A stretch of DNA of 47,673 nt from Rhodospirillales bacterium Ga0074136 (GTDB lineage: Bacteria > Pseudomonadota > Alphaproteobacteria > Acetobacterales > Acetobacteraceae): the NCBI GenBank assembly GCA_001464375.1, contig LNEW01000055.1:1-47673 (forward strand). The letters run 5' to 3'. The translations under genes and the position numbers were made by a program. The notes under the pieces were generated by a model. That model searched no databases and had not been told where the DNA came from. It saw nothing but the letters and a program-made list of their open reading frames with translations. Each line of letters opens with the position of its first letter. Positions within the stretch are counted from its first letter, which is position 1. Of this stretch, positions 23,793 to 38,478 are shown one piece after another.

Positions 23793-26524
23793 CGTGCTTC
23801 ACCCTGGATGGCCGCGATGTCGAGGCTGCACCTGGCGAGACGATCTGGGCCGTCGCGCAGCGCGAAGGCATCGACATCCCGCATCTGTGCCACCTGCCGA
23901 AGCCCGGCTACCGCCCGGACGGCAATTGCCGCGCCTGTCTCGTGGAAGTCGAAGGCGAGCGCGCCCTCGTGGCGTCCTGCATCCGCGCGCCGCGTGAGGG
24001 CAGTGTGGTGCGCAGCGCCACCGCGCGGGCGGATGCGGCGCGGCGGATGGTGTTCGAATTGCTGCTCGCGGACATGCCCGGACCTGCGGGCCGCGACGCG
24101 ACCGCGCCCTTCGGTCGCTGGGCTGCGCGGCTCGGCATCACGCAGTCCCGCTTCGCGCCGGATCCGCGGCCGGGGCGAGACCTCTCGCATCCGGCCATGG
24201 CTGTCGCGCTGGACAGTTGCATCGCCTGCGGCTTGTGCGAACGCGCCTGCCGGGAGGTCCAGCACAACGACGTCATCGGACTCGCGCGGCGCGGCTCGGC
24301 GGTGACGGTCGCCTTCGACCTGCTCGATCCGATGGGCGCCTCCTCCTGCGTCGGCTGCGGTGAGTGCGTGCAGGCCTGCCCGACCGGCGCGCTGCTGCCG
24401 AAGCGCGTGGTCGACGACCTCGGATACCGCTCAGCAGCGCCCGCGCAGGAAGTACCAAGCGTCTGCCCCTATTGCGGGGTCGGGTGCCAGGTCGGCTTCC
24501 GCGTGCGCGACGCACGCATCGAGGAGGTGGTCGGCCTCGACGGTCCGTCCAACCATGGCCGTCTGTGCGTGAAGGGACGCTTCGGGTTCGACTTCCTCAC
24601 CCATCCGGACCGGTTGACGCGCCCGCTTATTCGCATCGAGGGCGCGACGAAGGATCCCGCCGACTGCACCGACCCCGCCCGCGCGCGGCGCAAGTTCCGC
24701 GAGGCCAGTTGGGAGGAGGCGCTGGCCCGCAGCGCCAGTGGCCTGCGCGCGATACGCGACAGCGTCGGTCCGCACGCCCTGGCGGGCTTCGGCAGCGCCA
24801 AGGGATCGAACGAGGAAGCCTACCTGTTCCAGAAACTCGTGCGTACCGGGTTCGGCACCAACAATGTCGACCATTGCACGCGGCTTTGCCACGCGGCCTC
24901 CGTCACGGCCCTGCTGGAAGGCATCGGCAGTGGCGCCGTGACGGCTCCGTTCACCGCGGTGGAAGACGCCGACCTGATCTTCGTGATCGGCGCGCGCCCG
25001 ACGGAGAACCACCCCGTCGCCGCCACCTTCATCAAGCACGCAGTCGCCCGCGGCGCGACGCTGGTGGTGGCGGACCCGCGCGGCAGCGAGCTGGATCGCC
25101 TCGCGACCGAGGTCTTGCGCTTCAGGCCCGGTGAGGATGTCGCGCTGCTCAACGGCATGCTGCATGTCATCCTCTCCGAGGATCTGTTCGATCCAGCCTT
25201 CGTGACCGCACGCGTCGAAGGCTTGGAAGCCCTGCGCGAGCACGTCGCCGCCTACGCGCCGGACACTGTGGAAGCGCAATGCGGCGTGCCCGCCGCGCAG
25301 ATCCGTCGCGTCGCACGCCTGTACGCGCGCAGCCCTGCCGCGCTGACCCTGTGGGGGATGGGCATCTCCCAATCCGTGCACGGGACCGACAATGCACGGG
25401 CGCTGATCGCGCTCGCGTTGGTCTGCGGACAGGTAGGACGGACAGGCGCGGGCCTTCATCCGCTGCGCGGCCAGAACAACGTCCAGGGCGCCTCGGATGC
25501 CGGGCTGATCCCGATGATGCTGCCGGACTACAGGCGCATCGACGATGCCGCCGCGCGGGCGGCGGTGGAAGCGCTGTGGGGCGCCACGCTCGATCCGAAG
25601 CCTGGCTTGACCGTGGTGGAGATCATGGCCGCCGCCGGGCGCGGCGACATCCGCGGCATGTATGTGATGGGCGAGAACCCGGCCATGTCGGACCCGGATC
25701 TCGGCCACGCGCGCGCTGCCCTTGCGCGGCTCGACCACCTGGTGGTGCAGGACCTGTTCCTGACCGAGACGGCGGCGCTCGCGGACGTCGTGCTGCCCGC
25801 CTCGGCCTGGCCCGAGAAGGATGGAACGGTCACCAACAGCAACCGCCAGGTGCAGATGGGCCGGGCTGCCGTGGCGCCCCCCGGGGAGGCCCGGCAGGAC
25901 CTCGCCATCATCGTCCAGATTGCGCGGCGCCTTGGCCTCGACTGGACCTATGCGCATCCGCGCGACGTCTTTGCCGAGATGGCGCAGGCAATGCCAAGCC
26001 TTGCCAACATCACCTGGGACCGCCTGCTGCGCGAGAGCAGCGTCACCTATCCCTGCTCGGCGCCGGACCAGCCGGGGGACGACATCGTTTTCCACGACCA
26101 TTTCCCGACCCGCGACGGGCGCGCACGGCTGGTACCCGCGGGGCCGTCGGACCCCGCCGAGACACCCGACACGACCTACCCCTTCATCCTGACGACGGGG
26201 CGCGAACTCGAGCACTGGCACACCGGCACCATGACGCGTCGCGCCGGCGTGCTTGACGCGCTGGAGCCGTCGGCGACGGTCTCCCTGGCGCCGGGCGACC
26301 TGCGAAGGCTCGGCATCGGGCCAGGCGCCTGGGTCCGCGTGTCGACGCGGCGCGGTACCCTGCGATGCGCGACGCGGGAGGATCCTGGCCTGCCGGACGG
26401 CATCGTCTTCCTGCCCTTCGCCTTCCGCGAGGCGGCCGCCAACCTGCTGACCGACCCGCGCCTGGACCCGGAAGGCAGGATCCCGGGCTTCAAACTGTGT
26501 GCTGCCCGCGTGGAACCGGCCTGA
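23789..26524 (+). CDS. fdsA: NAD-dependent formate dehydrogenase alpha (catalytic molybdo/tungsto) subunit
   Basis: This 911-residue catalytic subunit overlaps the beta subunit by 4 bases. The N-terminal ferredoxin-like [2Fe-2S] domain has cysteines in CHLPKPGYRPDGNCRAC and VASC. Two [4Fe-4S] motifs follow (CIACGLCERACREVQHND and CVGCGECVQACPTGAL), then the cubane motif CPYCGVGC of bis-MGD enzymes. The active-site region VDHCTRLCHAAS has the metal-coordinating cysteine and adjacent histidine in place of selenocysteine. The C-terminal dinucleotide-binding domain contains FILTTGRELEHWHTGTMTRR. It converts formate to CO2. The accessory genes fdsC/fdhD are not in the window. Confidence 0.9.
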   Translation: MTCFTLDGRDVEAAPGETIWAVAQREGIDIPHLCHLPKPGYRPDGNCRACLVEVEGERALVASCIRAPREGSVVRSATARADAARRMVFELLLADMPGPAGRDATAPFGRWAARLGITQSRFAPDPRPGRDLSHPAMAVALDSCIACGLCERACREVQHNDVIGLARRGSAVTVAFDLLDPMGASSCVGCGECVQACPTGALLPKRVVDDLGYRSAAPAQEVPSVCPYCGVGCQVGFRVRDARIEEVVGLDGPSNHGRLCVKGRFGFDFLTHPDRLTRPLIRIEGATKDPADCTDPARARRKFREASWEEALARSASGLRAIRDSVGPHALAGFGSAKGSNEEAYLFQKLVRTGFGTNNVDHCTRLCHAASVTALLEGIGSGAVTAPFTAVEDADLIFVIGARPTENHPVAATFIKHAVARGATLVVADPRGSELDRLATEVLRFRPGEDVALLNGMLHVILSEDLFDPAFVTARVEGLEALREHVAAYAPDTVEAQCGVPAAQIRRVARLYARSPAALTLWGMGISQSVHGTDNARALIALALVCGQVGRTGAGLHPLRGQNNVQGASDAGLIPMMLPDYRRIDDAAARAAVEALWGATLDPKPGLTVVEIMAAAGRGDIRGMYVMGENPAMSDPDLGHARAALARLDHLVVQDLFLTETAALADVVLPASAWPEKDGTVTNSNRQVQMGRAAVAPPGEARQDLAIIVQIARRLGLDWTYAHPRDVFAEMAQAMPSLANITWDRLLRESSVTYPCSAPDQPGDDIVFHDHFPTRDGRARLVPAGPSDPAETPDTTYPFILTTGRELEHWHTGTMTRRAGVLDALEPSATVSLAPGDLRRLGIGPGAWVRVSTRRGTLRCATREDPGLPDGIVFLPFAFREAAANLLTDPRLDPEGRIPGFKLCAARVEPA

Positions 26525-26577
26525 CCCGAAGCGCGGGGCAGGGGCGGATAAAGATCCCGTCCTCGGAGCCCCCCTGA

Positions 26578-26602
26578 ATGCCAGGGGACACTTCCCTGGC
26601 AT
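26578..26602. terminator. Hairpin after the formate dehydrogenase operon
   Basis: ATGCCAGGG at 26578-26586 and CCCTGGCAT at 26594-26602 are perfect inverted 9-base arms around a 7-base loop. It sits in the 106-base gap between the formate dehydrogenase operon and the ATP-grasp operon. There is no T run, so it may be a terminator stem of the GC-rich type or a processing or regulatory site for the downstream transcript. Confidence 0.45.
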
Positions 26603-26630
26603 GGCCGCGCACGGGCTACACTCGCGCGTG

Positions 26631-27806
26631 ATGCGCCAGCCCCGCCCCGCCATCGCCCGCCATCTCCTCACGCGCGACGACGCCTTCCCGCTGCGCGCCG
26701 AGGCGCTGGGCTTCCGCTTCCATTCGCCGGACGACCGCGAGTACTGGACGCGCGACGCATGCTACGCGCTGGCGCCGGACGCCGTCGCCGCACTCGAAGC
26801 CGCCGCGCGGGAACTGGATGGCATGATCGCCGCCGCCGTCGATGCGGTGGTGCGCCGGGGCGACTACGCCGCCTTCGGCTTCACCGACCGCCTGGCCGCG
26901 CTGGTCGAGGCCTCCCACCGCGCCTGCGAAGCTTCGCTGTATGGCCGCTTCGACTTCCGCCTGTCGCCCGATGGCGCCATCAAGCTGTTCGAATTCAACG
27001 CCGAGACGCCGGCCGCGCTGCTCGAAGCCGCCGTGGTGCAACTCGCCTGGTTCGAGGAAACGCCGCCCGGCCCCGCCACGCGCCCGGGCAGCGACCAGTG
27101 GAACCGGATCGACGATGCGCTGGTGGCGCGCTGGCCCACGCTTGGCCTGCCACGCCTGGTCCACTTCGCCGCCGAGCACGAACGCGGGGACGAGGTCGCG
27201 CAGGTCGCCTACCTGATGGCGACCGCGCGCGCCGCCGGCCACGATGCCGAATTCCTGCCGGTCGAGGACATCTCCTGGCAGGAGGGCCCCGGCTTCGTCA
27301 CGCCCGACGGCACGCCGCTGCGCGCCTGCTTCAAGCTCTATCCCTGGGACTGGCTGGATGCCGAGGAAGGCGGCCGCCTGCTGCCGCTCGGGCGCACCCG
27401 CTGGATCGAACCGCCGCGGCGCATGATCGCGGCGAACAAGGCGATCCTGGTCACACTCTGGGAGATGTTCCCGGGGCATCCTCTGTTGCTGCCGGCCTCG
27501 CTCGACCGCGGCGCGATCGGCGGGCCGGCCATCGGCAAGCCGGCGCTCGGGCTCGAGGGGCACGGCATGCGGGTCGAGGGGGTGGAGGAGGATGTCTCGA
27601 CCGAGATCGCTGAGGGTTTGCCACCATCGCCCACCATCTGGCAGGCTTGGGCGCCGCTGCCGGGGCACGCGACGCCGCAAGGCGACGCCTTTCCCGTCAT
27701 GGGCGTCTGGATGGTGGGGGACGAGCCCTGCGGGCTCGGAATACGGGAAGGGGACGAGCTGGTGACGACGCTCGAGGACCGTTTCGTGCCGCATGTGGTG
27801 CTCTAG
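26631..27806 (+). CDS. Glutathionylspermidine synthase-like ATP-grasp protein, copy 1 (YgiC/YjfC-like)
   Basis: This 391-residue protein corresponds to the synthetase (ATP-grasp) half of glutathionylspermidine synthase, without the amidase half of E. coli Gss. Family blocks are clear: LFEFNAETPAALLEAA (about residue 120), FKLYPWDWLDAEE, IEPPRRMIAANKAILVTLW, IGKPALGLEGHGM (about 300-313) and the ending GLGIREGDELVTTLEDRFVPH. The glycine-rich loop reads GLEG where relatives have GREG. The ATG at 26631 follows GTG and another ATG at 26601, so the start is uncertain by ten codons. It is first of a seven-gene same-strand series. It likely ligates an amine or amino acid to a carboxylate or peptide; the substrate is unknown. 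Confidence 0.85.
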   Translation: MRQPRPAIARHLLTRDDAFPLRAEALGFRFHSPDDREYWTRDACYALAPDAVAALEAAARELDGMIAAAVDAVVRRGDYAAFGFTDRLAALVEASHRACEASLYGRFDFRLSPDGAIKLFEFNAETPAALLEAAVVQLAWFEETPPGPATRPGSDQWNRIDDALVARWPTLGLPRLVHFAAEHERGDEVAQVAYLMATARAAGHDAEFLPVEDISWQEGPGFVTPDGTPLRACFKLYPWDWLDAEEGGRLLPLGRTRWIEPPRRMIAANKAILVTLWEMFPGHPLLLPASLDRGAIGGPAIGKPALGLEGHGMRVEGVEEDVSTEIAEGLPPSPTIWQAWAPLPGHATPQGDAFPVMGVWMVGDEPCGLGIREGDELVTTLEDRFVPHVVL

Positions 27807-27930
27807 TGCCGCGACTCCGAAATCCTCCGGCCTTCGTGCCCGGGCCACCGGCCTGTGTGTCAGTGGCCTGCGCATCGCAGTCGGTCATTGGCGGAGCCGG
27901 CGAACTGCCGGGGCGGGACGCTAGGCCCGC

Positions 27931-29115
27931 ATGACCTATCCGCCCTTCCAGCGCGTGCCCATCCGCACCCCCGCCGAGGCCGAGGCCCGGCTGCGCGACC
28001 TCGGGATGCTCGCCGCCGGCCCGGACGGCGCGCCCTGGTGGGTGACCGATGCGGCCTATGTGATCGATGCCGCCCTGGTCGATACCGTCTTCGCGGCGGC
28101 CAAGGGCATCCAGCAACGCTGCTACGCGGCGGTCGAAGCCATCGTCGCCAGCGGGGACTATTCCTACTTCGGCATCCGCAACCCGGCCATGCAGACCGCC
28201 ATCGCCAAGTCCTGGGCGGCCAAGGATTCGCCGCTGCATGGACGGATGGACTTCTCCTTCGGGCCGGACGGCACGCCCTTCCTGCTCGACTACGAGGCCG
28301 ATTCGCCCTTCGGCCTGGCCGAGGCCGCCTATGTCCAGTGGGAGTGGTTCGAAGCCTGGCAGGCGGCCAACAATGCCAGCGCCGACAGCCAGGAGAACCT
28401 GATCTTCGAGACCTACACGGCGCATATCCCGCGCGCCGGCCTGCCCACCCGCTTCGCCATCGCGGTCGGCGGCGACACCCTGCCGGATGGCCGCCCGGGC
28501 GATACCGGCGAGCGCTTCGACGCCGAGTTCATCGCCGAGATGACACGAGCGGCCGGCCTGCGCCCGTCGATCTGCTCGATCGGCCAGGTCGGCTGGGACC
28601 TGGATGCGCTGGCCTTCGTCGACGAATCCGACGAACCCCTGCAACTGCTGGTGAAGATCTATCCCTGGGATTGGATGGAGGACGAGCCGAATGTCGATGT
28701 CCTGCCGGAATGCCGCACGCGCGTGCTGCCCGGCGCCTGGACGCGGCTGATGGCGGACAAGACCATGATGGCGCTGCTCTGGCACCAGGCGCCCGGCGCG
28801 CCGAACCTGCTGCCGACCTTCCTCGATCGGCCGGCCCAGGGTGCGATGGTGGCGAAGCCGCGCCGCGGCTGGGATGGCGAGCACGTCACCCTGCCCGGGC
28901 AGACGCCCGGCGCGGTGCCCGAGGACGAGATGGGCCCGCTGCTGTTCCAGGCGCATTGCCCGCTGCCGGTGTTCCGCTCCTCCGCCGGGGAGGTGCATGC
29001 CAACCTGTCGGTCTGGATGGTCGGCGGCGAGCCAGCCGGCATCGCCTTCCGTGAATCGCGCGGCCCCGTCACCGGGCCTGCCGCGCGCTTCGTGCCGCAT
29101 ATCCTGCGCGGCTGA
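27931..29115 (+). CDS. Glutathionylspermidine synthase-like ATP-grasp protein, copy 2
   Basis: This 394-residue paralogue of the preceding gene shares the framework: FLLDYEADSPFGLAEAA, VKIYPWDWMEDE, MADKTMMALLWHQAP, VAKPRRGWDGEHV and an ending AGIAFRESRGPV..ARFVPHILRG. Its glycine loop GWDG and the YEADSP motif (YNADTP in most relatives) differ from copy 1, suggesting another substrate or a non-catalytic partner. It lies 124 bases after copy 1 and 27 bases before the DUF350 gene. Two adjacent ATP-grasp paralogues imply sequential ligations or a heteromer. Confidence 0.85.
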   Translation: MTYPPFQRVPIRTPAEAEARLRDLGMLAAGPDGAPWWVTDAAYVIDAALVDTVFAAAKGIQQRCYAAVEAIVASGDYSYFGIRNPAMQTAIAKSWAAKDSPLHGRMDFSFGPDGTPFLLDYEADSPFGLAEAAYVQWEWFEAWQAANNASADSQENLIFETYTAHIPRAGLPTRFAIAVGGDTLPDGRPGDTGERFDAEFIAEMTRAAGLRPSICSIGQVGWDLDALAFVDESDEPLQLLVKIYPWDWMEDEPNVDVLPECRTRVLPGAWTRLMADKTMMALLWHQAPGAPNLLPTFLDRPAQGAMVAKPRRGWDGEHVTLPGQTPGAVPEDEMGPLLFQAHCPLPVFRSSAGEVHANLSVWMVGGEPAGIAFRESRGPVTGPAARFVPHILRG

Positions 29116-33449: not shown

Positions 33450-35177
33450 TCAGGACACGCCCGCGAGGCGCAAGCCCCGCAGGAAGTGATCGATGTCGCG
33501 CCGCCGCACATAGGGCGCGGCGCGGCGGAAGCGTTGCAGCGTGAAGCCGGGGTCGATCGCGAGCAGCGCGCGTACCGCCGGGCGCGCCTCCGCCTCCCGC
33601 CCCAGATGCCCGAGCGCCGCGATGCGTGCACGCAGCGCGGCGGTGAAGCGCGGCTGCATCTGCAGCACGGCGCGGGCCATCTCGGCCGCCGTCTCGAAAT
33701 TGCCGAGCAGCATCTCGACCGTGGCGAGCCCGGCCTCTGTGAAGAAGGCGTGCGGGTTGCGCGGCAGCAATTGCAACGCGCGCAGCAGGTGCCGCCGCCC
33801 GGTCTCCAGCTCGCCCGAATACGCATGCGCCATGCCCGAGAAGGTCCAGGCCGAGGGCAGGGACGGGTTGATCGCCAGCGCCTGGCGGCACAGCGACAGC
33901 CCCTCGGGCACCTGGTGGTGCAGGAAGCCGCGCGCGTGTCCGGCGATGGCCAGCCCGCGCGCATCCTTGGGGTCGAGCAGGATGGCCTGGTCCGCGGCGG
34001 CGGCGGCGGCGGCCAGCACCTCGCGTTCCTGCGTCGCCCAGCCCTGGCCGACCAGCAGGATGTTCCAATAGGCCAGCCAGGCGTGTCCGGCCGCCAGGCG
34101 CGGATCCCGCTTCACCGCCATGCCCAGCACCTTGCCGGCGCGCAGGAAGGCGTCGCGTTCCAGGCGATAGATGTCGGGCAGCACGCGCATCACCATGTCC
34201 TGCGCGCTGGATTCCGACAGCGGCACCTGGAGCGCGCGCTCGGCCTCCAGCAGGAGCAACTCGTGTTCGAGGCGTGCGCATGCGAGCGCGGCCACTTCCT
34301 CGGCGAAGGCGCCCGGGCGGGCGGCGTCGGGTTCGGCGGTCAGCGACCACAGCACCGCGCCGCCGCCGGCGGCATGGATGAAGCGCAGCACGGCCTGCGT
34401 CCGGTTTTCGGACAAATGGATGTTGCCGGTCAGCAGGTAGTCCGCCGCCGGCACCGCGCGGCCCGGCACCTCGACCACCACCGCGACGGATCGCAGCGCC
34501 GAGAGCGCGGCCAGCACCGCATCGTTCACCGCCGCATCCAGGTGCCCGACGCGCGGCCCGGCCAGGTTGCGCACCGGGAGCACCAGCACGGAGGGCCGCC
34601 GCGCCGCCGGCGTGCCGCGGTCGGGCGGACGGGGTTCCGCGACACCGGGGGTCGCGGACCCAGCCTCGGCGCGCGCCAGCCAGTCATCCAGCTGGGGGTC
34701 GATGCCGCGCAATTCCGGCAGCAGGGGCCAGCCCTCGGTGCGCGGCGTATGCTCGACCACCACGCGGTCGGCGCGCAGCCACAGCGACGACGCATCGGCG
34801 CCGAACGGGTCCAGCGCGCCGGCCAGCAGACCGCCGCGCAGGTCGTGCAGCACGTCGCGCAGCCGGGCCAGGCCCTGGCGCGCCTCCGCCCCGCTCCAGA
34901 GCAGCCCCGCCACCAGGCGGCGGGGCATGACGTGGCCGGGGGCCAGCGCCAGCAGCGCCAGCAGCGCGCGCGGGCGGGCGCCGCCTGGCAGCAGGGACGC
35001 ACCGTCGGTGGCCAGCACCTGCAGCGTGTCGCCCACGCGCAGGCGCAGCGACACCGCGGGGGCGGCGTGGTCGGCCAAGGGCGGCGCGGGGCCGACGCTG
35101 TCCAATGGGGAAGACCTTTCGAGCAACCGGCGCGCCGACGCATTTCCGACGATTGCCGACGCCGATACCTCAAGCAC
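33450..35177 (-). CDS. SARP-like winged-helix / TolB-like / TPR transcriptional regulator
   Basis: The N-terminal part (SLRLRVGDTLQVLATDGASL, then RALLALLALAPGHVMPRRLV and LLWSGAEARQGLARLRDVL) is a SARP/OmpR-type winged helix. A TolB/FlgO-like domain follows (VLVLPVRNLAG, then YLLTGNIHLSENRTQAVLRF). The last 230 residues are TPR-like helical repeats with ADQAILLDPKDARGLAIAG and RQALAINPSLPSAWTFSG. There is no internal ATG near the start; GTG at 35177 is chosen, but GTG 35054 or TTG 35105 are possible, so the N-terminus is uncertain. It is divergent from the RadC-like gene and upstream of the kelch gene, which it may control. Confidence 0.75.
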   Translation of the reverse strand: MLEVSASAIVGNASARRLLERSSPLDSVGPAPPLADHAAPAVSLRLRVGDTLQVLATDGASLLPGGARPRALLALLALAPGHVMPRRLVAGLLWSGAEARQGLARLRDVLHDLRGGLLAGALDPFGADASSLWLRADRVVVEHTPRTEGWPLLPELRGIDPQLDDWLARAEAGSATPGVAEPRPPDRGTPAARRPSVLVLPVRNLAGPRVGHLDAAVNDAVLAALSALRSVAVVVEVPGRAVPAADYLLTGNIHLSENRTQAVLRFIHAAGGGAVLWSLTAEPDAARPGAFAEEVAALACARLEHELLLLEAERALQVPLSESSAQDMVMRVLPDIYRLERDAFLRAGKVLGMAVKRDPRLAAGHAWLAYWNILLVGQGWATQEREVLAAAAAAADQAILLDPKDARGLAIAGHARGFLHHQVPEGLSLCRQALAINPSLPSAWTFSGMAHAYSGELETGRRHLLRALQLLPRNPHAFFTEAGLATVEMLLGNFETAAEMARAVLQMQPRFTAALRARIAALGHLGREAEARPAVRALLAIDPGFTLQRFRRAAPYVRRRDIDHFLRGLRLAGVS

Positions 35178-37205: not shown

Positions 37206-37958
37206 TCAAGCGGCGGTGCGCCGGCGGCGCCGGACCTCGGTGGCATGGCGGCCGACCGGGCATTGCCCGCCGCGCCGGGGCGCCACCACGGAACGCTCGT
37301 AGTCGGCCCAGTCGGCGGCGGCCATGCCATCGAGGCCCTCGACCACCGGGAAGGTGTTGAGCGCGTCCTCGGCATAAGCCTCGCGCGGGATGGGCTGCAC
37401 CTGGAACATCGGCAGGTCCGGGTCGAAGCGAACCGGCGCGTGGGTGCGCGTCAGGCGCAGGTTCACGAACAGCGGGCCGAACCAGCGGTCGGCCTCGACC
37501 AGGCCTTCGAAGACCTCGAAGCCGGCGGGGCGCGGCAGGTTGACCGGCGGGCGGACCAGCAGGCTCCAGCCGGGGCGGGAGCGCGCGAACAGGCCGGACC
37601 ACAGATTGACCAGGCCCGGTTCGGGCAAGGCGCCGATCAGCGGCGGGGAGAAGCCGCGCACGCCATCCGGCACTGCCGCATCGAAGCGGTCGCGGAAGCC
37701 GGGAAATTGCGCGACCGCCAGCGGGTGCCACGCGTCGGCGCCATCCCAGGTCCAGTGGATCTCGGTGCCGTCCCAGACCAGCGCCAGGCCGATCGGCGGA
37801 AACACCAGCCAGCCGAAGCCCGACGCGGTGGTGGCGGCCTCGCAGTAGCGGAAGGCGCGCGTCGGCAGGGTGCCGCCGGCGGCGCGGTCGGCCCGCTGCG
37901 GGGCGCGCCCGCCGGGCGTCACCTGGTGGAAGCGGACGAGCGGTTCGGCATCGGGCAT
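37206..37958 (-). CDS. DUF6065-family protein
   Basis: This 250-residue soluble protein has no signal peptide. It opens with MPDAEPLVRFHQVTPGG and contains FRYCEAATTASGFGWLVFPP, LVWDGTEIHWTWDG, GLVNLWSGLFARSRPGWSLL and FQVQPIPREAY, the pattern of the DUF6065 family, whose function is unknown. Aromatic residues are abundant. The frame extends upstream, but ATG 37958 is the natural start. A 55-residue peptide gene lies 73 bases upstream on the same strand, so the two probably form an operon and the protein may act on that peptide. This link is inference. Confidence 0.75.
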   Translation of the reverse strand: MPDAEPLVRFHQVTPGGRAPQRADRAAGGTLPTRAFRYCEAATTASGFGWLVFPPIGLALVWDGTEIHWTWDGADAWHPLAVAQFPGFRDRFDAAVPDGVRGFSPPLIGALPEPGLVNLWSGLFARSRPGWSLLVRPPVNLPRPAGFEVFEGLVEADRWFGPLFVNLRLTRTHAPVRFDPDLPMFQVQPIPREAYAEDALNTFPVVEGLDGMAAADWADYERSVVAPRRGGQCPVGRHATEVRRRRRTAA

Positions 37959-38031
37959 CGCGGCGGGTCCTGGCGGGATGGAACGCGGGAACCACCCGGC
38001 TTGCCGCGCGGGCCGGCCGGGTGGCGCGGGC

Positions 38032-38199
38032 TCAGCCGCGGGCGAAGATCGGCGACAGGCCGCCCATGCGCAGCGCGCCGGCATCGGCGACCGTGGCGGG
38101 CGGGAACAGCGGCGACAGGCCGCCCAGGCGCAGCGTGGCGGAAGCCGGTGCCGGGATGGCGGCGGTCGCGGGGGCCGGGGGGCTCTGGGTCTGGGTCAT
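38032..38199 (-). CDS. Small Pro/Ala-rich peptide with a duplicated GGLSP(L/I)F motif, possible precursor peptide
   Basis: This 55-codon gene begins at ATG 38199 with AGGAGA exactly 7 bases upstream. The peptide starts MTQTQSPPAPATAA, is Pro/Ala-rich for about 20 residues, then contains LRLGGLSPLF (residues 23-32) and LRMGGLSPIF (43-52), 20 residues apart, ending ARG. There is no signal peptide, membrane helix or cysteine. A leader-like first part and repeated core-like segments, next to a DUF6065 gene 73 bases downstream, fit a ribosomally made peptide that is modified or bound by a partner. It could equally be a small structural or regulatory protein. No known peptide family is recognised. 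Confidence 0.68.
   Translation of the reverse strand: MTQTQSPPAPATAAIPAPASATLRLGGLSPLFPPATVADAGALRMGGLSPIFARG
38050..38133. repeat. 24-base direct repeat with 60-base period inside the peptide gene
   Basis: Positions 38050-38073 and 38110-38133 are identical except for one base (T/G within CCCA-T/G-GCG). They encode the two LR(L/M)GGLSP segments. The exact 60-base period keeps the reading frame and points to an internal 20-codon duplication. Confidence 0.85.
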
Positions 38200-38206
38200 C
38201 GGGGGG

Positions 38207-38212
38207 TCTCCT
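38207..38212 (-). promoter_or_regulatory. Ribosome binding site of the repeat-peptide gene
   Basis: On the minus strand these bases read AGGAGA and end 7 bases before ATG 38199. In this genome few genes have so strong a site, which is the main support for translation of the small peptide. Confidence 0.75.
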
Positions 38213-38478
38213 GGACTGGTGGGCCTGGGGGCAGGGCCCGGTGGGTGCCGTGCCCGACCGGGCGCGGCGAGGGGGTCGGGGCGCGCGCGGGATCGCGCCC
38301 CGTGTCGGGGGGGCGGGCGAGAGTGTCGCCGCGCCGTCGCTTCAAGGTAGTCCGTCCTAGCCGGCTGGCGCCCCGGGGGGCGCCGCCGGGCCGGGGCTTG
38401 CGGCCCAGGCTGCCAGTGGTGCAGGCCATGCCTGTCCGCTGGTGCGTCTTTCGTAACGCCGGCAGAGGGAAGGCGTCA

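Follow-up and report, generated by a model that had tools for sequence, protein, structure and literature searches.

The window, by which we mean the whole stretch of 47,673 nucleotides analysed here, encodes a 55-residue peptide, MTQTQSPPAPATAAIPAPASATLRLGGLSPLFPPATVADAGALRMGGLSPIFARG, that carries two copies of a short block; it is followed downstream by a gene for a protein of the Pfam family DUF6065 and by one for a TPR protein akin to BTAD-type regulators (Table 1). On re-reading the sequence, we found the layout described in the initial annotation to be right: AGGAGA lies seven bases before the ATG of the peptide gene, the two LR(L/M)GGLSP(L/I)F copies begin at residues 23 and 43 with a spacing of 20 residues, and 73 bases separate the peptide stop from the ATG of the DUF6065 gene. 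The copies are identical at 8 of 10 residues, a similarity matched in 0 of 2,000 residue shuffles of the peptide. They differ at two codons with essentially zero synonymous change, so the window alone provides little proof, and the pN/pS of the peptide against six orthologues (0.34 to 0.69; 0.00 to 0.91 over all 21 pairs) is weak when taken alone. The case for the window peptide rests on its relatives and not on the window itself.

Table 1. Features of the locus and of the second set in the same genome (window positions unless a contig is named)
Feature	Position	Strand	Basis or remark
TPR regulator akin to the BTAD-type regulators beside the pair elsewhere	33450..35177	-	start uncertain
Divergent-clade DUF6065 protein, 250 aa, proposed partner enzyme or binder	37206..37958	-	PF19541
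Stem-loop, two 10-base arms, between peptide stop and DUF6065 start	37991..38025	-	own z-score -0.99, not significant
Repeat peptide gene, 55 aa, two block copies (putative precursor/substrate peptide)	38032..38199	-	ORF reading and family membership
Block 2, LRMGGLSPIF, residues 43-52	38044..38073	-	preceded by D-A-G (residues 39-41)
Block 1, LRLGGLSPLF, residues 23-32	38104..38133	-	usual Asp, four positions ahead of the first L, is absent
AGGAGA ribosome binding site, 7 bases 5' of ATG	38207..38212	-	direct sequence reading
Second-set peptide, 153 aa, block VADKGTVRxGAGMRTPK	G000:C34 8868-9329	-	
Second-set regulator, divergent	G000:C34 9782-11752	+	

A precursor family beside divergent DUF6065 genes

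The window ORF belongs to a family of precursors encoded directly 5' of a divergent DUF6065 clade, with the block consensus D-x-G-x-[VIL]-R-x-G-[GAS]-x-x-[PR]-x-L or a variant of it. We scanned 84,980 species, one genome each, with a 13-sequence alignment and used the best 80 of 201 relatives; three of these loci (L129, L136, L172) offer fewer than 215 bases of upstream sequence, which leaves 77 that are informative. An adjacent same-strand upstream ORF with the block or a repeat was present in 74 of the 77, 67 of them called by script and seven by eye (L154, L163, L164, L165, L169, L174, L175); no precursor ORF was found in cis at L115, L133 and L156. The script demanded Asp and Gly, and the conservation of these two residues in the 67 loci is therefore partly by construction. 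Some of the seven called by eye are imperfect: the tandem repeat of L154 contains neither the Asp nor the Arg, the Arg is missing from L163 and L164, and the precursor frame of L174 continues into the DUF6065 start. The precursor stop lies 56 to 387 bases 5' of the DUF6065 match in the script-called loci. Most of the best 80 relatives belong to Acetobacteraceae (Roseomonas, Neoroseomonas, Elioraea, Siccirubricoccus, Rhodopila, Acidisphaera and MAGs); some MAGs among them carry other labels.

Within the window's own genus, PF19541 was found in 30 of 35 genomes, and all 31 loci examined have a repeat-bearing same-strand ORF 5' of the DUF6065 gene (27 by the unit HMM; L020, L035, L031 and L032 by reading). 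Three repeat types occur there: VADAGxLRLGGLSPLF, which is that of the window, ADAGKVRxGGxAPSLPPVRxSAEAV and ASVADKGTVRxGAGxRTPK. The third type belongs to a second set of precursor, DUF6065 and regulator genes that the window's genome carries (locus L230; Table 1).

The number of blocks per precursor runs from 1 to at least 17 (L113, L146); in L278 it is at least 21, in an array that runs off its contig. The shortest have one block in 30 residues (L116, L122 and L126, the last being MSNIIVAVPPPVVDLGRIRLGSVFRLPAAG). The block is constant, the linkers are variable and the repeat period ranges from 17 to 25 residues; many precursors stop right after the final block, as in ...VRLGGVAPAL (L161). 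This pattern suggests that function resides in the block, with the linkers acting as spacers. In the 48 precursors with an assignable start, the Asp of the first block lies 8 to 73 residues in (median 21.5) and no N-terminal leader is common to the precursor types, so the Pro/Ala-rich half of the window peptide, previously described as leader-like, does not correspond to a conserved leader.

The copies are kept at the protein level. Over 200 pairs of neighbouring copies, drawn from 27 hand-picked locus ids of which two are double-counted (L013/L121, L015/L118), 474 of 643 changes are synonymous and 169 non-synonymous (pN/pS 0.13), and the differences fall at codon positions 1, 2 and 3 in the numbers 95, 64 and 484. 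Coding-type conservation, one of the checks proposed for this ORF at the outset, is thus present. Similarity of the block consensus tracks similarity of the DUF6065 protein (Mantel r 0.68, 0 of 2,000 permutations, 58 loci), as expected if the two are jointly inherited, and at 70% identity the 72 DUF6065 proteins aligned fall into 23 clusters, so the association does not stem from one recent clone.

The expectation that short repeat ORFs would accompany DUF6065 genes elsewhere held for the divergent clade and failed for the canonical one, in which a 16-position block model matched none of 41 loci (L036-L046, L066-L095). Because the divergent loci also served to train the unit HMM, its sensitivity there is circular, but its specificity (0 of 41) is not. 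Alone, it recovers 59 of the 80 loci, 27 of the 31 same-genus loci and 15 of 19 further divergent ones (L047-L065), the remainder being called by a wider pattern or by eye.

An independent search of 150 genomes of the family with a precursor profile compared 75 DUF6065 places scoring below 70 bits with 78 merged peptide places, after canonical rows, one 135-bit fragment and one second-stretch row had been dropped. Both were found in 44 genomes, a divergent DUF6065 alone in 10, the peptide alone in six and neither in 90 (Fisher p 1e-21, without correction for relatedness). Of the six with the peptide alone, three have strong matches, located at contig ends, and three have weak ones (E 0.003 to 0.007). 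A same-strand peptide match lies within 2.5 kb of 52 of the 75 DUF6065 places. Inspection of 21 of the other 23 (leaving out those of G109 and G179) gave 12 with a block-bearing ORF by eye, three without (L302, L310, L311), four without a DUF match to the model (L291 to L294), one distant homologue (L308) and one with 2 bases upstream (L309).

Precursors with no DUF6065 gene in the DNA examined were seen at L261, L267, L270 and L271. L310 and L311, which lack a precursor in cis, come from G166 and G091, whose other contigs carry the precursors L267 and L261, respectively; L270 and L271 are both in G158, which has one DUF6065 gene elsewhere. A DUF6065 protein that serves a precursor in trans would fit these patterns.

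In a class-wide sample, the clade was found (E at most 1e-20) in 5 of 385 genomes, namely the window's own and four from two other families. All four of the latter have tandem repeats upstream (L282-L285), the copies of L284 being without the Asp and with Lys in place of Arg. On a Rhizobium plasmid (NZ_CP104041), a hypothetical protein encoded 16 bases 5' of a DUF6065 gene holds three copies of D-x-G-x-V-H-I-A-N-K-S-P-x-F, which is the same block with His for Arg; this DUF6065 protein is 38.5% identical to that of the window. The repeat peptide is absent beside a Sinorhizobium DUF6065 of 25% identity. On a Sinorhizobium medicae plasmid (L322), this third and very distant DUF6065 gene overlaps a hypothetical gene of 169 amino acids without repeats. 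A phage origin was considered and rejected, as the Rhizobium homologue had no match in phage records. Fifteen IMG/VR contigs carry the clade. Upstream DNA was read for 12 of them and shows a block-bearing ORF in seven, two of the remaining five having less than 15 bases there; these contigs would appear to be host DNA.

Against Pfam and NCBIfam, the precursors tested gave matches below curated cut-offs only, and a sequence-profile search of the PDB with the precursor gave only chance-level matches. Contigs often end inside or just past a precursor array (for example, L262-L266, L268, L269 and L278-L280), and precursor genes are probably under-counted in draft genomes. The precursors, being short or repetitive, break many draft assemblies, and neither those tested nor the divergent DUF6065 clade scores above an NCBIfam cut-off, so annotation pipelines and cluster finders likely overlook them. 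Two further repeats were seen. An Elioraea MAG has a second block-bearing ORF, matched by the unit model, 2.8 kb past the start of the DUF6065 match (L104:10817-11332). A different tandem repeat of about 25 residues, TRQFGDGGxxxPxLKAHLAKAS, lies 5' of a more distant DUF6065 gene at L314 (G021:C29) and is possibly a sister substrate type.

The DUF6065 protein and its neighbours

The window's DUF6065 protein scores 43.5 bits against PF19541, over the cut-off of 26.6, through an alignment confined to residues 115-196 (82 residues), compared with about 300 to 350 bits for most of the canonical clade. The two clades are homologous (hhalign probability 99%). Columns conserved at more than 85% in both (36 canonical and 72 divergent rows) include Arg25, Cys39, Trp62, Arg126, Asn140, Glu155, Asp157 and Asn166; no His column is common to both sets, and by eye we saw no cofactor motif. 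The canonical proteins thus share the Pfam family and the Cys, Arg, Asn, Glu and Asp positions, but differ in having no such repeat peptide and, in some cases, in being fused to other domains: four of eight long canonical ORFs scanned are fused to Cupin_8/JmjC-type domains (L039, L077, L083, L087) and one to SapC (L082). These fusions point to protein or peptide modification in the wider DUF6065 family.

The divergent clade has no NCBIfam match over cut-off, and a PDB sequence-profile search gave a best match at a chance-level E of 0.25, with none to E 10 when a mixed alignment was used. We also considered the beta-barrel of dUTPase and dCTP deaminase, because DUF6065 GIVETDW stands in register with dUTPase GTIDSDY in the best local alignments. 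The profile comparison was not significant (probability at most 1.3%, compared with 90% for dUTPase against DCD), and the fold remains a lead only.

The stem-loop in the window is one instance of a tendency seen at the group level only: across 62 loci, with four others left out by hand, folding of the 60 bases after the precursor stop is more stable than that of their shuffles, with a mean z of -1.66 versus -0.41 inside DUF6065 (p 4e-6). Such a hairpin may allow the precursor to be made in excess of the enzyme through differential expression.

The most frequent neighbour of the pair is the regulator, which elsewhere is about 700 residues long with BTAD, TPR and weak TolB_N matches. In the window copy, Pfam did not detect BTAD and a Trans_reg_C match fell below cut-off; its start is taken as one of several GTG/TTG candidates, none with a clear ribosome binding site. 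Among 34 long loci (at least 3 kb upstream and at least 4.4 kb downstream), where 28 families occur in three or more, the regulator is present in 24 and is by far the commonest neighbour after DUF6065, the next family reaching 6; it was not found in the other 10. These counts come from a crude gene finder that missed genes, recovering DUF6065 in 30 of the 34 loci and the precursor family in 6. In the best 80 of 201 relatives, the regulator lies within about 2.3 kb of the pair at 45 loci, in three arrangements: upstream and divergent (26), downstream and convergent (14), and downstream on the same strand (5). The window has the last of these and the second set in its genome the first. The survival of the linkage through such rearrangement speaks for function.

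In the flanks of the 34 loci, we saw no exporter family shared across lineages: an ABC ATPase occurs in six, at scattered places, and permease-like genes were seen by eye in six, mainly of one lineage. Radical SAM, YcaO, lanthionine synthetase and DUF692 domains were all absent from the Pfam matches of the window genes scanned, which are a subset of its ORFs. By eye, we saw none of these among the 28 neighbour families, not all of which have a Pfam name, and no second enzyme family recurs beside the divergent pair across lineages in these 34 loci.

A TldD-family metallopeptidase gene lies directly 5' of the precursor gene, in the same orientation, at 9 of the 49 loci that have 2.7 kb or more of upstream DNA (L108, L110, L119, L141, L145, L155, L160, L166 and L175; Pfam domains checked in three), and it adjoins many precursors in further genomes of the family too; it is absent beside the pair in the window. 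All nine belong to one DUF6065 lineage, eight to a 28-member cluster and one to its sister cluster. The sole members of the 28-member cluster with enough upstream DNA but no TldD gene are L133 and L156, which are also without a precursor in cis, and the genes 3' of DUF6065 differ among the TldD loci looked at. Passages of one study describe TldD/TldE as cutting the leader of microcin B17 (PMC5810440), which makes TldD a candidate processing enzyme in that lineage. A heme A synthase-like gene is likewise shared upstream by four loci (by eye), so the linkage may be plain synteny.

Possible roles of the pair

The pairing of precursor and DUF6065 gene is very secure. As to its meaning, we give barely better than even credence to a multi-copy peptide substrate for which the DUF6065 protein is the modifying or binding partner, in the manner of a multi-core RiPP enzyme. 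The 55-residue peptide would then be a ribosomal substrate with a repeated recognition or core block, and the DUF6065 protein would bind every block and most likely modify each. The retention of Cys39, Arg126, Asn140, Glu155 and Asp157, together with the absence of a conserved His, leads us to guess that, if it is an enzyme, it may use metal-free, Cys/Glu-based chemistry at the Asp-to-Arg turn. The adjacent BTAD/TPR protein may control the pair, and TldD may aid processing of the product in its one lineage. A fuller picture, in which a poly-block precursor lacking a conserved leader, a DUF6065 protein of a new peptide-modifying family, a product-sensing BTAD/TPR regulator and TldD maturation in one lineage make up a modified-peptide signalling cassette of Alphaproteobacteria, is tentative and, taken whole, rather unlikely.

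That the peptide is a RiPP is plausible. A ribosomal precursor with one or more core segments beside a dedicated partner gene is what the 74 of 77 informative loci present, and to this extent the RiPP proposal of the initial annotation, with DUF6065 as partner, has stood; no leader consensus emerged, and no known RiPP enzyme family was seen among the genes covered. The lack of a leader common to the precursor types lowers the RiPP reading without overturning it, since some RiPPs have no leader. Multi-core precursors are known from plants, fungi and some graspetides, and the present pair resembles them in having a ribosomal tandem-copy precursor beside a candidate tailoring gene, with a copy number that varies among species; it differs in having neither a leader consensus nor a known RiPP enzyme alongside, and its modification is putative. 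The TldD lineage recalls the microcin B17 type, but no azole-forming enzyme was seen here, and in the window, as in most lineages, TldD does not adjoin the pair.

Against the modification reading stand the lack of an exporter family across lineages and of a PDB relative, the confinement of a possibly syntenic TldD to one lineage, the three DUF6065 loci with no ORF in cis and the four precursors with no DUF6065 gene. The DUF6065 protein could also be a pure binding protein. It might, for example, be a recognition or chaperone module that presents the blocks to an enzyme whose gene lies elsewhere, a task that falls to separate recognition domains in some RiPP pathways. Fusions such as those of the canonical clade are to be expected of an accessory domain, and the lack of a His conserved in both clades, of a visible cofactor motif and of a fold recognisable by sequence would agree with this; however, several polar positions have been retained despite the wide divergence of the two clades and no second enzyme family recurs beside the divergent pair, and we consider such a role unlikely. 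A purely stoichiometric role, with the peptide as an unmodified inhibitor or scaffold that controls DUF6065 through many identical sites, would account for uniform blocks, free linkers and a copy number from one to at least 17, as in a multivalent binder. Single-block peptides of 30 residues suffice in some species, however, and the nearby TldD gene would be left unexplained, which makes this very unlikely.

Alternatively, the array could serve as a peptide signal to the BTAD/TPR regulator, in a Gram-negative counterpart of peptide quorum sensing where DUF6065 matures or traps the peptide. The regulator accompanies the pair at more than half of the 80 loci in three arrangements, and both copies in the window's genome. 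The RRNPP systems of Bacillota likewise pair a small propeptide gene with a TPR receptor (passages of PMC10075063), and tandemly duplicated propeptides have been reported for them (passages of PMC11343458). The present systems differ in belonging to Alphaproteobacteria, in their BTAD/TolB_N-like regulator and in the extra conserved DUF6065 gene. Most RRNPP receptors carry an HTH-type DNA-binding domain, as opposed to BTAD here. With no recurrent exporter, no regulator found in 10 of the 34 long loci and an unrecognised BTAD in the window copy, we regard this signal reading as quite unlikely. A chance ORF, or a low-complexity artefact of GC-rich DNA, might be argued from the GC-rich window and from copies that differ at just two codons, but it has next to no probability left: all of the conservation results speak against it, and relatives in other families have kept the peptide (L282, L283, L285).

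We found neither DUF6065 (PF19541) in the literature searched, outside which most subscription papers fall, nor a description of the precursor-DUF6065 pair in the titles and abstract openings covered; a search for a SapC/halogenase/cupin link likewise found none. In the passages available from a survey of Acetobacteraceae gene clusters (PMC8776678), RiPP clusters are few in the acidophilic group that includes Roseomonas and mostly of the DUF692 type, and the pair is not described. The recurrence of the pair in dozens of related bacteria suggests an undescribed peptide-modification or signalling system, and it provides DUF6065, an uncharacterised family, with a concrete, testable substrate in dozens of natural variants. 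If DUF6065 modifies the block, it would represent a new family of peptide-modifying enzymes, one in which no cofactor motif can be recognised; sensing of the product by the regulator, if it occurs, would bring peptide signalling to a bacterial group whose signals are usually small molecules.

Elsewhere in the window, two neighbouring ATP-grasp genes resembling glutathionylspermidine synthase (PF03738) occupy positions 26499-29115, and a DUF1190-like gene lies downstream of them.
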